From assembly GCA_019347795.1 (NCBI GenBank), contig JAHWKS010000022.1, forward strand, positions 1-15,121: 15,121 bases of DNA, read 5' to 3'. Below the pieces are notes generated by a model. The model did no database searches. It saw only the letters and a list, made by a program, of their open reading frames with translations, and was not told where the DNA came from. Shown piece after piece: positions 4,113 to 8,559 of this stretch (position 1 is the stretch's first letter; each line of letters begins with the position of its first letter). The translations under genes and the position numbers were made by a program. Source of the DNA: Planctomycetota bacterium. GTDB lineage: Bacteria > Planctomycetota > Planctomycetia > Pirellulales > Pirellulaceae.

Positions 4113-5443
4113 TGAGGTTTAAACCACTGCCGATGATGCATGATCCAATCACTCGTCGCGACTTTGTCGCGCAAGCGAGTTTGACCGCGGGCGCCGCCGG
4201 CTTATCCACCTTTCTGCCGCGGAGCTCCATTGCAGCCGAGGTCAGCCCCCTCCCGCCCGGCCGGGCGGAGCATTGCATCTTCGTTTGGCTCGGGGGTGGA
4301 GCGTGCCATATCGATACTTGGGATCCGAAGCGGGTCGGGGACCCGCAGGCGAGGAAGCCGGGGTCGGCTTACCCGGCCATGGACACGGCGATTCCCGGCA
4401 TCCAGGTGTGCGAGTATCTGCCGCGGTGCGCCGATGTGCTGGACCGCTTTGTGCTGCTGCGGACGGTGCACCATGAGGTGATCGACGAGCATGCCGCGGC
4501 CACCAATTGCATGCACACCGGCCGGCCGACCAGCGGCACGATCGTGTATCCTTCGATCGGCTCGATCGTGGCGCACCAGCGCGGCGCCGCGCAGGAAAAT
4601 GCTCCGGCGTACGTGCTGATCGGCTATCCGAATGTGACCCGCGGTCCCGGGTTCCTCGGCCCGGAGGCGGGATACATCTACCTGACCGACACTGAGTCGG
4701 GACCCGCGGGACTTTCACATCCGCCCGAGGTGAGCGAACAGCGCCAGTCGCGGCGAGAGCATCTGCTGGCGGCGGTGCGCGAGCAGTACCTCGCCCGTAA
4801 TCCGGGCGGCCAAGGCATCCGCAACTACGACTCGACGTTGAGCGAGGCGCTGCGTCTGTCCGGCCCTGACTTCCTCCGGGTCTTCAATCTCCAGGAAGAG
4901 CCGGCCGACCTGCGGGAGTCGTACGGCGGCGAGTTCGGGCAGCGGTGCCTCCTCTCGCGGCGGCTCTTGGAAGCGGGGGTGCGGTTCATCGAGGTCTCGC
5001 ACAACTTGAACTTCGTTAATGGTACCGGCTGGGACACGCACAACCAGGGGCAGCTCAACCAGCACCTCTTGATCAAAGAGCTGGACGCCGCCCTCGCGAC
5101 GCTGGTCCTGGACCTGGAGCGGCGTCAAATGCTCGACAAAACGCTGGTGGTGGTCGCCTCCGAGTTCGGCCGGCCGGCGGGCTTCGACGGCGGCGGCGGC
5201 CGCGGCCACCACTCCAAGTCGTTCACTGTGGCCCTGGCCGGCGGCGGGCTGAAGACCGGCCAGGCGATCGGGACCACCGACGAATTGGGAATGGCGATCG
5301 CCGACCGGCCGATCTCCGTCCCCGACCTGCACGCCACGATCCATCACGCCCTGGGCATCGACCCGTCCGAAGAGCTCTATGCCGGCGACCGCCCCGTCCC
5401 GATCACCGACGGCGGAACGCCCGTCCACGAAGCGTTCGCGTGA
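4112..5443 (+). CDS. DUF1501 family protein with Tat signal (first copy)
   Basis: This 443-residue DUF1501 protein belongs to the alkaline phosphatase/sulfatase-like superfamily. A twin-arginine export signal is visible at residues 13-42 (ITRRDFVAQASLTAGAAGL), so it is probably exported folded. Candidate metal-site segments are GGGACHIDTWDPK (about 61-73; D68, D71), GWDTHNQG (306-313; D308, H310), SEFGR (350-354) and GRGHHSKSF (363-371). Length fits the family (about 430-480). ATG 4112 overlaps the stop of the upstream gene in TAATG; the paired ATGs at 4133 and 4136 lie closer to the twin-arginine motif and are reasonable alternatives. DUF1501 genes regularly follow DUF1549/DUF1553 genes in planctomycetes, which suggests the two products act together. 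Substrate and reaction are unknown. Confidence 0.9.
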   Translation: MRFKPLPMMHDPITRRDFVAQASLTAGAAGLSTFLPRSSIAAEVSPLPPGRAEHCIFVWLGGGACHIDTWDPKRVGDPQARKPGSAYPAMDTAIPGIQVCEYLPRCADVLDRFVLLRTVHHEVIDEHAAATNCMHTGRPTSGTIVYPSIGSIVAHQRGAAQENAPAYVLIGYPNVTRGPGFLGPEAGYIYLTDTESGPAGLSHPPEVSEQRQSRREHLLAAVREQYLARNPGGQGIRNYDSTLSEALRLSGPDFLRVFNLQEEPADLRESYGGEFGQRCLLSRRLLEAGVRFIEVSHNLNFVNGTGWDTHNQGQLNQHLLIKELDAALATLVLDLERRQMLDKTLVVVASEFGRPAGFDGGGGRGHHSKSFTVALAGGGLKTGQAIGTTDELGMAIADRPISVPDLHATIHHALGIDPSEELYAGDRPVPITDGGTPVHEAFA

Positions 5444-5453
5444 CCAGCCGGAT

Positions 5454-5527
5454 GGGGTCGGGGAGGTTTTTCGGCCGGATGAGTCGTCACATCGCAAGAT
5501 CCATGACCGAAAAACCACCCCGACCCC
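5454..5527. repeat. 21-bp inverted repeat (REP/BIME-like) over the start of the next gene
   Basis: The left arm 5454-5474 and right arm 5507-5527 are reverse complements at 20 of 21 positions; the single mismatch is A5464 against A5517. The loop is 32 bases (5475-5506). The left arm begins GGGGTCGGGG and ends GGTTTTTCGG. It includes the only good Shine-Dalgarno-like run (5461-5466), and the loop and right arm hold the candidate start codons ATG 5479 and ATG 5503. In RNA this would be a very stable hairpin that could hide the ribosome site. Two short GC-rich arms in inverted pairing resemble REP/BIME elements mobilised by RAYT-type transposases; that identity is inferred from appearance only. 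Confidence 0.8.
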
Positions 5528-8500
5528 CTGCAGTTGGTTGTCCCCGTCTCTTGTCGATCGTCCTGTTGTTTATCGCAGCGACCACGGCGCGCGGCGTCGC
5601 TGCGGAGCCGGCCAAAGTGCGCTTCGAGCGCGATGTGCAGCCGATCTTCAGCGCGAAGTGCTTGACCTGCCACGGCGCCGCGGAGAAGCGGGGCGGGGTG
5701 GGGCTGAGCGATCGGGAGGCGGCGCTGGCGGAGCTCCACTCGGGGCTGTACGCCATTGTTCCCGGGAAGCCGGAGGAAAGCGAGCTGCTGCGGCGAGTCG
5801 CCTCGGAGGATCCTTCCGAGCGAATGCCTGCCAAGGGCGAGCCGCTCACCGCCGCCGAAGTCGCCGTGGTTCGCCGCTGGATCGAGCAGGGCGCCGAGTG
5901 GCCGCCGCACTGGGCGTATCGACTGCTGGAGCGGCCGGCGATTCCCGATCCGGCCAACCTGGCATACGCCGAGTGGGCGCAAACGCCGATTGACCTGTTC
6001 ATCCTCGCGCGGCTGGAAGAACTGGGCCTGCAGCCCTCGCCGCCGGCCGATCACCGGACGTTTCTGCGGCGGGTGACCTTCGACTTGCTCGGTTTGCCTC
6101 CCACGCCGGAAGAGATGGAGGCGTTTCTCGCGGATGACTCGCCGCAGGCGCACCAGCGGGCGATCGACCGGCTGCTCGCCAGTCCGCACTTCGGCGAGCG
6201 CTGGGCGCGGCACTGGATGGACGTGGTTCATTACGCCGAGACGCACGGGCACGATCAGGACCGCCCTCGCCCGCACGCCTGGCCGTACCGCGATTACTTG
6301 ATCCGCTCGTTCAACGAGGACAAGCCGTACGGGCGGTTTGTGGAAGAACAGGTGGCGGGCGATGCGCTTTATCCCGGCGACCCGCAGGCGATCATCGCCA
6401 CCGGGTTTCTCGCGACCGGGCCGTGGGATGAAAGCTCGCTCCGCGACATCCGCGAGGACACGATCGACCGCGAGATCGCCCGTTACCTCGATCGCGACGA
6501 CATCGTGCACACGGTGATGGCCACATTCAACAGCGCCACCGTCCACTGCGCCCGCTGCCACGACCACAAGTTCGATCCGATCGCGCACGAGGAATACTAC
6601 GGCCTGCAAGCGGTCTTCGCCGGGACCGGTAAGGGCAATCGACCATTGGACGCCGACCCGCAAGTCGCGAAGCGGCGGAAGGCGCTCCAGGAGAAGATCG
6701 CCGCATTGCCCGCGCTGCGGGAAAACGTGGATCCTCGGCTTCTCGCTCCCGAGGTGCAGGAGGAAATCGCCGCCTGGGAGGCGAAACTCGCCAACGCCGC
6801 GTCGCCGTGGGTGGTCCTTGAGCCGGAGACTTACAGTGCGGAGAAGGGAAGCACGCTGACGAAGCAATCCGACGGCTCGCTCCTGGCCGGCGGCGAGCGG
6901 CCGGAAACGGAGATCTACACGATTACGGCCTCCGCCCCGATCGAAAACATTACGGGTGTGCGACTGGAGGTCCTCACCGATCCCTCGCTTCCGCACCAAG
7001 GGCCGGGCCGGCAGGACAACGGGAACCTGCACCTCAATGAATTCACCTTCGCGGTCAACTCATCGCCGGCAGACCTGGTGAACCCCAAGGCCGACTTCGA
7101 CCAGCAAGAATGGACCGCCGCCATGGCGATCGACGGCAAACCGGCCACAGCCTGGGGCGTCTATCCCGAAGTGGGGAAACCGCATCAAGCGGTCTTCGAG
7201 TTGCGAGAGGCGATCGCCGTCGAGGGCGACGCTACACTCACCTTTCGACTCGAGCAAACGCACGGCGGCGGCCACCTCATCGGCCGGCCGCGGCTCTCCA
7301 TCACTTCGGCGAAAGCGCCGTTGCCGCTGGACGTGAACTCGCTTCCCGACGAGATTGCGGAGGTGTTGAGAACGCCTCCCCGAGAACGCGACAACCAGCA
7401 ACGGGCGAGTCTTGCGGCTCACTATCTTCACGAAAAATGGACGGCGGAGCTTGCTTCACTCCCGCCGCAACAGTTGGTTTATTGCGGCTCGAACGACTTC
7501 CAACCCGATGGAAGTTTTCGTCCGGCCGCCGCGCCCCGCCCCATTCACATCCTCCATCGCGGCGACGTGCGGCAGCCCGGGGAGGAGGCGCAGCCGGGCT
7601 CGCTCTCCTTCATCGACAACTTCGGCGGCGCCTTTGATCTGGACAACCCAAGCGACGAAGGCGCCCGACGCGCAGCGCTGGCTCGCTGGCTCTCCGATTC
7701 GCGGAACGTGCTCACCTGGCGGTCGATCGTCAATCGCCTCTGGAGCTACCACTTCGGTCGCGGCCTGGTAGACACCCCCAACGACTTCGGCCGCATGGGC
7801 GCCACGCCCACGCACCCGGACCTATTGGACTGGCTGGCGGTGGAGCTGCTCGAAAGCGGCGGCTCGCTCAAGCACATCCACCGCCTGATTGTCACTAGCG
7901 CTGTTTACCAGCAGTCGTCGAATGCGGAATGCGGATTGCGGAATGCGGAATTATTCTTTTCCATTCCGCATTCCGCACTCCGCACTCCGCATTCGTTCGA
8001 CTCGGACAACCGCTACTTATGGCGGATGAACCGCACACGCCTCGACGCCGAGTCGATCCGCGACGCCGCGCTGTCGGTCAGCGGTATGCTCGACCGCACG
8101 ATGGGCGGACCGTCGGTCAAGCAGTTCATCCAGACCCCGGGCGTGCATGTGACGCCGAACGTCGATTACCGCAACTTCGACGTGGACGATCCGGCGAACC
8201 ATCGCCGCAGCGTGTACCGCTTCATCTTCCGCACGCTTCCCGACCCGTTCATGGAAACGCTCGACTGCCCCGACGCCTCGCAACTGGCCGCCAAGCGCAA
8301 CGAGTCGGTGACCGCCCTTCAGGCGCTGGCGATGCTCAATAACTCCTTCATGGTCCGCCAAAGCGAACGCCTCGCCGAGCGGCTGAGAAACGAGCGACCT
8401 GAATTGCTAGAGCAGATCGAGCGGCTGTACGAGCTGGTGCTGAACCGGCAACCGACGGAGACGGAGTTATCCGCATTCGCGGAGCACGCCGGAGCATACG

Positions 8501-8559
8501 GGCTGGCGAACGCGTGTCGGGTGCTGTTCAACAGCAACGCGTTCATGTTTGTGGACTGA
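5479..8559 (+). CDS. Exported cytochrome-type PSCyt1/DUF1549/DUF1553 protein
   Basis: Secreted protein of 1026 residues (1018 if ATG 5503 is used; numbering below is from 5503). A Sec signal peptide with core LLSIVLLFIAATTARGVAA spans about 16-34. PSCyt1 at about 38-135 has haem motif CLTCH (53-57). DUF1549 at about 160-370 has haem motif CARCH (349-353). A beta-rich region at about 437-600 (GPGRQDNGNLHLNEFTFAV) separates it from DUF1553 at about 680-1015. Residues about 807-832 are encoded by a palindromic repeat inserted in frame between VYQQSS and DSDNRYLWRMNRTRLDAE, two segments normally joined by a short linker. The start is uncertain: ATG 5479 has GGAGG 12 bases upstream, ATG 5503 gives a shorter signal peptide, and the frame stays open to GTG 5440. 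The whole start region lies in a 21-bp inverted repeat. A DUF1501 gene follows after 15 bases. Two CXXCH motifs suggest covalent haem and electron transfer outside the cytoplasm; the actual role is unknown. Confidence 0.9.
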   Translation: MSRHIARSMTEKPPRPPAVGCPRLLSIVLLFIAATTARGVAAEPAKVRFERDVQPIFSAKCLTCHGAAEKRGGVGLSDREAALAELHSGLYAIVPGKPEESELLRRVASEDPSERMPAKGEPLTAAEVAVVRRWIEQGAEWPPHWAYRLLERPAIPDPANLAYAEWAQTPIDLFILARLEELGLQPSPPADHRTFLRRVTFDLLGLPPTPEEMEAFLADDSPQAHQRAIDRLLASPHFGERWARHWMDVVHYAETHGHDQDRPRPHAWPYRDYLIRSFNEDKPYGRFVEEQVAGDALYPGDPQAIIATGFLATGPWDESSLRDIREDTIDREIARYLDRDDIVHTVMATFNSATVHCARCHDHKFDPIAHEEYYGLQAVFAGTGKGNRPLDADPQVAKRRKALQEKIAALPALRENVDPRLLAPEVQEEIAAWEAKLANAASPWVVLEPETYSAEKGSTLTKQSDGSLLAGGERPETEIYTITASAPIENITGVRLEVLTDPSLPHQGPGRQDNGNLHLNEFTFAVNSSPADLVNPKADFDQQEWTAAMAIDGKPATAWGVYPEVGKPHQAVFELREAIAVEGDATLTFRLEQTHGGGHLIGRPRLSITSAKAPLPLDVNSLPDEIAEVLRTPPRERDNQQRASLAAHYLHEKWTAELASLPPQQLVYCGSNDFQPDGSFRPAAAPRPIHILHRGDVRQPGEEAQPGSLSFIDNFGGAFDLDNPSDEGARRAALARWLSDSRNVLTWRSIVNRLWSYHFGRGLVDTPNDFGRMGATPTHPDLLDWLAVELLESGGSLKHIHRLIVTSAVYQQSSNAECGLRNAELFFSIPHSALRTPHSFDSDNRYLWRMNRTRLDAESIRDAALSVSGMLDRTMGGPSVKQFIQTPGVHVTPNVDYRNFDVDDPANHRRSVYRFIFRTLPDPFMETLDCPDASQLAAKRNESVTALQALAMLNNSFMVRQSERLAERLRNERPELLEQIERLYELVLNRQPTETELSAFAEHAGAYGLANACRVLFNSNAFMFVD
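7919..7995. repeat. Palindromic repeat element inside a coding region
   Basis: The left arm 7919-7951 and right arm 7963-7995 are reverse complements at 31 of 33 positions, with an 11-base loop (7952-7962, TATTCTTTTCC). Each arm is itself about four runs of a TGCGGAA-type 7-mer, so the element combines tandem and inverted repetition. It lies wholly inside the DUF1553 domain of the 5479-8559 gene, contains no stop in that frame and keeps the frame open. The translated peptide (NAECGLRNAELFF then SIPHSALRTPHSF) resembles nothing expected in this domain, which supports a later insertion. This recalls the Rickettsia palindromic elements that insert in frame into genes. Confidence 0.9.

Follow-up and report, generated by a model that had tools for sequence, protein, structure and literature searches.

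The hairpin at positions 7919-7995 of the window, a 15,121-nucleotide stretch of a contig from a Planctomycetota bacterium, consists of two phase-locked heptamer arrays in inverted orientation, each with the core AAT(GCGGAAT)4, and lies in frame within a DUF1553 domain. Arrays of this AATGCGG type, about four units long, are dispersed through the genome, and we lean towards the reading that the pair was formed from such arrays, copied in trans into a permissive loop of the domain. To our knowledge, heptamer arrays have been met chiefly in intergenic DNA, and we know of no established way in which they spread. Here a single protein loop records repeated in-frame use of arrays, in paralogues of the same genome (G000) and in a planctomycete of a different order (G740), where the heptamer is another one, which allows a comparison of arrays at one position. 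Any mechanism has to account for the strand polarity of the arrays and for their distance of a few nucleotides from gene edges; the arrays also supply proteins with ready-made peptides of seven-residue period.

The palindrome is genuine. Its left arm (7919-7951, forward strand) and right arm (7963-7995, reverse strand) are each 33 nt long, are complementary at 31 of 33 positions (94%) and stand 11 nt apart, as originally described, and they form the top-ranked inverted repeat of the window. Folded as DNA, the hairpin reaches -37.9 kcal/mol against -11 ± 2.3 kcal/mol for 200 shuffled versions, none of which equalled it (z = -11.75). The tandem 7-mer structure proposed for each arm was also found, with 4.6-4.7 units per arm: the left arm contains the core array at 7921-7951 with one GATT variant unit, and the right arm carries a heptamer array on the opposite strand with two GAGT variant units. 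The spacer between them (7952-7962) is unrelated to those of other pairs. Reading the seven triplets of the GCGGAAT heptamer, and the complement of each, shows all six frames to be free of stop codons. The window also begins with an octamer array, (GAGTAATG)7 at positions 1-55, at the contig end; CTCCATCA octamer arrays occur again in loci L063 and L064, so the genome holds at least one octamer family.

The host reading frame (5440-8559, forward strand; 1039 aa from a GTG, with a start at 5551 according to our home-made gene finder) stays open through the hairpin, and a PSD1 (DUF1553, PF07587) match at 7666-8484 on the same strand encloses it, in agreement with the stop-free, intradomain element that had been predicted. 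The linker segment YQQSS ... DSDNRYL occupies 7906-8019 (forward strand). Between the motifs Y[RQ]Q.S and D.[DE]N there are 26 residues in the window, 13 in a same-genus orthologue that lacks the insert, and 9 in most homologues. The net gain from the element is therefore 13-17 residues, fewer than the roughly 25 first proposed. No remnant of the usual linker was recognised beside the insert in the window protein. An AlphaFold model of the domain places the insert as a coil between two helices, which would fit a loop; with a mean pLDDT of 67, a pTM of 0.40 and residues 182-225 (insert included) below 50, the model is too weak to prove the surface loop that had been envisaged.

Copies of the arm were drawn from search lists and extracted stretches (48 loci) of the draft genome, which spans 5.92 Mb in 976 contigs and is 72% complete. 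Exact GCGGAATGCGGA occurs 49 + 37 times, against 0 + 0 for the reversed control; a separate search listed at least 100 matches and scored 40 of 60 candidates, and the number of copies in the whole genome is a minimum. The 48 loci hold 71 arrays of at least 20 nt, arranged as 20 inverted pairs and 31 arrays without a partner of such length. The resulting single share, 31 of 51 elements, is an upper bound, as some of these arrays have weak partners below the 20-nt cut (14 nt in C591, 19 nt in C116) or sit at a contig end (C337). Polarity is uniform, with GCGGAAT on the left and ATTCCGC on the right in 20/20 pairs. Among the 60 arrays of at least 24 nt, every one begins at unit positions 2-4, 48 end on T or the next G, and 37 measure 31-33 nt, clustering round the 31-nt core. 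Pair spacers vary in length between 6 and 129 nt, and all that they have in common is short words of the kind expected by chance. Arm identity is 0.799 within pairs and 0.798 between pairs (permutation p = 0.42; pair C322 was kept in the test although it scored 0, its overlap being too short). The paired arms behave like independent draws from the family, and fold-back copying of one arm was rejected because the two arms of a pair resemble each other no more closely than they resemble those of other pairs. The mobile or self-propagating repeat of the original prediction is thus indeed dispersed, but as an array of about 31 nt that is often unpartnered rather than as a single palindrome; with independent arms and unrelated spacers, the proposed behaviour of a Rickettsia palindromic element moving as one unit is not supported.

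Outside this genome, the exact 18-mer was found as one copy each in three of 59 relatives and in none of the remaining ones, and GCGGAAT-type arrays of like form appear in records of many phyla in a public genome collection (at least 119 stretches, 80 of them among the matches listed). A same-genus genome (G001) was considered as the source of another heptamer family and set aside, having one array in 400 kb of its approximately 9.2 Mb. Locus L075 of the window's own genome contains three more heptamer arrays, with units ACCCCTG, ACTCGCT and AATGGCG. RAYT-type mobilisation was likewise rejected: the scan for arrays at nine Y1 transposase matches gave only a single array-like 12-mer, in L248. 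A Y1 match and an array-like match share a contig in C25, C397 and C791, more than 1 kb apart, which we considered a coincidence.

As predicted, unrelated proteins of the genome also contain the encoded peptide in frame, in the forms NAECGxRNAE or IPHSAFR. Hosts identified with Pfam include, besides the window, the PSD1 proteins of C690, C25 and C152, a GNAT acetyltransferase with a weak ABC match (C313), a phosphodiesterase reading frame (C609) and a PutA-type protein in which the array lies between the Pro_dh and Aldedh domains (C466). In C591 (L016, L066), two elements lie in an impB/mucB/samB-family gene and the DNA polymerase III alpha gene is a host as well. A Cas4-Cas1 fusion (C564; L064, 794-2629) has two elements, of which one is inside the N-terminal Cas4 part and the other separates the two domains. 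Further coding copies, judged by eye from translations, include C634, C831 and C727. The hosts are not confined to exported proteins, since PutA-type, Cas4-Cas1, DNA polymerase III alpha and impB/mucB/samB-family proteins are not known to be exported. By our home-made codon-usage gene finder, 25/60 arrays lie inside predicted genes in the window's genome and 16/34 in G740.

Most intergenic arrays hug gene edges with one end. In the window's genome, the 5′ end of the unit strand lies a median of 3 nt from the gene edge (≤10 nt in 23/30), compared with 118 nt for the 3′ end (≤10 nt in 3/29); the corresponding medians in G740 are 4 nt (≤10 nt in 14/18) and 91 nt (0/18). Random 31-mers placed in the same gaps would be expected within 10 nt in 5.2% of cases (P = 5e-24 for the window's genome). 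Exceptions in which the 3′ side is nearer the gene edge number 4/25 and 1/18 in the two genomes, respectively. Hugged edges include stop edges (10/30 and 10/18), and of the start edges checked, 13/15 have an ATG. Edge hugging is not a matter of G content, because the hugging strand is G-rich in the window's genome and C-rich in G740.

The DUF1553 loop itself is a recurrent site. Of 45 PF07587 matches in the window's genome, four short ones were left out and 41 loci were read (39 distinct). In our own judgement, 23 of these have an alignable loop (Y..xS ... D..N), seven another short form, one is misaligned and eight are unaligned. Arrays occupy the loop in four of the 23 alignable paralogues (C162, C690, C25, C152), beginning at the same serine or one codon later. 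The C152 copy is a single array and retains eight additional linker residues, C690 has also lost the D..NR motif, and the spacer of C25 may be the old linker. Among the best 120 of 7953 protein matches, the linker is 9 aa long in 88, 13 in two and longer in 30. Heptamer-encoded peptides scored above all 40 shuffles in 19 of the 30 long linkers and did not in the other 11; scores of at least 8 were reached by 50% of long linkers and 2.7% of control stretches. On protein sequence alone, these linkers would imply several distinct heptamers at the loop. One homologue that is 76% identical (P0001) has a related peptide at the site, at the equal length of 26 residues.

At the DNA level, linkers extracted by alignment (196 locus rows, 175 distinct) include 136 of 9 residues, and among the 175 the only heptamer pairs at the loop are the window's own and that of G740. 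By eye, L369 shows an array on the right side alone and L362 a hairpin of another kind; in L121 the heptamer array stands upstream of the loop. These counts speak against array insertion at the loop as a frequent event. Other repeats and sites were seen in related proteins. In P0025 and P0034 the loop contains a pair of peptides without heptamer character (GWAVPT ... GTAHPT or GKAHPT), which resembles a further palindromic repeat, and P0037 has an NAEC-type heptamer peptide in another DUF1553 loop, while its main site has the 9-aa linker of most homologues. A second in-frame site, with single arrays just before ID.F of DUF1549-like proteins, was observed in P0015 and in L424 and L430 of G740, the latter two called DUF1549-like by motif; a regular-expression survey of the ID.F site matched only 36/120 proteins and was set aside.

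G740, which belongs to the same class as the window's planctomycete and to another order (family f22), encodes the homologue P0012, and uses the same loop with a different heptamer. The loop DNA reads as four AATGCCG/ATTTCCG-type units, a spacer, and then the same type inverted, that is, an inverted pair of ATTKCCG. Three consecutive ATTKCCG units matched exactly 29 times in G740 and were absent from the other 18 genomes searched, the window's included. Conversely, GCGGAATGCGGAATGCGG matched 18 times in the window's genome, three times in G783, and neither in G740 nor in the other 16 of the 19 genomes. Neither heptamer, common as it is in its own genome, turned up in the other one. A 21-mer of the ATCCGCG heptamer of G731 matched 0/19 genomes, a pattern too strict for the G731 site itself. 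The arrays listed for G740 mostly have four units and form 14 distinct pairs, all 14 of the same polarity; in at least two of the pairs, those of C321 and C365, the two arms carry different heptamers. Period 7 accounts for 27/29 arrays of period 5-10 in G740 DNA drawn partly from contigs chosen for their arrays. As several heptamer families coexist within G740, one heptamer per host is a simplification.

From these patterns we infer a manner of spread in which members of the family would act in trans as the source of single new arrays, added at exposed 3′ ends probably through template switching or some other templated process. Joining of two array-tipped ends would then give a convergent pair with independent arms and a short unrelated spacer, with loss of the intervening DNA. 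Trans copying and joining fit the independent arms, the single polarity, the fixed phase, the unrelated spacers and the missing native linker. An insert of this kind would survive because the heptamer is stop-free in all six frames and the loop tolerates additional residues, so that a suitable array length and a tolerant loop are all that in-frame survival requires. Neither break repair nor template switching predicts the hugging of gene edges unless an additional rule is assumed. A more specific version, which we consider quite improbable, is a telomerase-like, templated heptamer-adding activity that would place about four genome-specified units on 3′ ends that are then joined; if true, it would yield independent convergent arms, a fixed phase, loss of the DNA between them and a unit typical of each genome. 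For DRT10, a preprint (PMC12632851) describes reverse transcription of an RNA template into tandem-repeat DNA.

Several other explanations can be considered. The hugging of edges to within a few nucleotides and the fixed polarity would suit selected gene-boundary signals (an RNA hairpin, a binding site or translation insulation) whose coding copies are tolerated strays, and like placement appears in the parts of MacGregor 2015 (PMC4679880) and Rehm 2015 (PMC4692102) that we could consult. The arrays inside predicted genes in both genomes (25/60 and 16/34) argue against such signals, and with one heptamer array in the 400 kb sampled from G001 they seem dispensable; we regard this reading as possible and worth keeping in mind, though doubtful. 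We consider it unlikely that a hairpin element (a MITE, a REP doublet or a relative of the Rickettsia palindromes) moves as one palindromic unit, with singles as its decayed halves. Uniform polarity in the 20 pairs of the window's genome and the 14 distinct pairs of G740, in-frame insertion in unrelated proteins, and the “single” arrays of C591, C116 and C337 with weak partners or contig ends would all be expected of such an element, but spacers unrelated in length and sequence, arms unmatched within pairs, the 31 single elements out of 51, the unlike heptamers on the arms of C321 and C365, and the lone array-like 12-mer (L248) among nine Y1 transposase loci are at odds with it.

Growth of arrays in place by replication slippage, each from a heptamer present there by chance and independently of other sites, would be in keeping with the dominance of period 7 in G740, within its partly array-chosen contigs, and slippage is cited as a hypothesis for heptamers in the accessible text of Rehm 2015 (PMC4692102). 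It sits poorly with one heptamer being common per genome and rare or absent in the other genomes searched, with the fixed phase and the length of about 31 nt, and with the recurrence of one heptamer at this loop in four paralogues, and we give it little credence. An old, vertically inherited linker whose palindrome arose by chance or codon use is highly improbable. The related 26-residue peptide of P0001 speaks for inheritance, yet the genome contains dozens of further copies, some of them between genes. These refute inheritance as a general account, and with them the outcome that would have refuted the original prediction, a shared peptide with a palindrome present nowhere else, did not arise; the fold z-score and the insert-free same-genus orthologue count against inheritance here too. 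Shared descent of the insert with P0001 alone is possible.

The dispersed arrays can be compared with published repeats, which we do from the accessible parts of the papers cited. They are closer to the heptamer repeats known from Xanthomonas and Nostoc than to Rickettsia palindromic elements. Heptameric G-rich repeats, GGGAATC in Xanthomonas and GGGGA(C/T)T in Nostoc, are described by Rehm et al. 2015 (PMC4692102); they share with the arrays of the window's genome and G740 a 7-nt unit, a preference for about four units and a dispersed distribution. Convergent inverted pairs occur among the Xanthomonas repeats and account for 20/20 and 14/14 pairs here, and the Xanthomonas and Nostoc repeats lie nearer their 5′ neighbouring ORF whatever its orientation, an asymmetry like the one described above. 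The accessible text reports no link of these repeats to mobile elements. Differences are also apparent (PMC4692102): the intragenic share is 42-47% here (home-made finder) versus 7-11% in Xanthomonas and 32% in Nostoc, the heptamers are other ones, one protein loop is reused in frame, GCGGAAT lacks the GGG tract of Rehm-type G-quadruplex repeats, and in G740 the strand that begins at the gene edge is C-rich rather than G-rich.

The TAACTGA repeats of Beggiatoaceae (MacGregor 2015, PMC4679880) are likewise heptamer arrays a few nucleotides from start codons with a patchy occurrence across distant lineages. They differ in being direct repeats whose forward unit has stops in three frames, because of which, as the available text has it, coding copies mostly lie at protein ends. 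Rickettsia palindromic elements (PMC10969869, PMC3767692), in the portions available, also lie in frame in unrelated proteins, with hot spots at one gene position discussed; they are conserved families of about 100-150 bp, whereas the element here consists of two 31-nt arrays with an unrelated spacer. REP elements of the GTAG/CGTC families (PMC3733652, in part) also often have units in opposite orientation, which lie between ORFs with some copies in genes, and are reported in planctomycetes too, but the arms here are built as direct heptamer arrays. On either strand, up to 8 nt from the ends of 60 arrays, GTAG occurred once and CGTC 12 times, neither being common to the arrays; the window's left arm is preceded by a CGTC. 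Our searches of the open-access literature brought up no listing for heptamer hairpins in planctomycetes or in DUF1553. Compared with the known systems, new here are the heptamers themselves, their high coding share, a protein hot spot, and the use of host-typical units at one and the same site.
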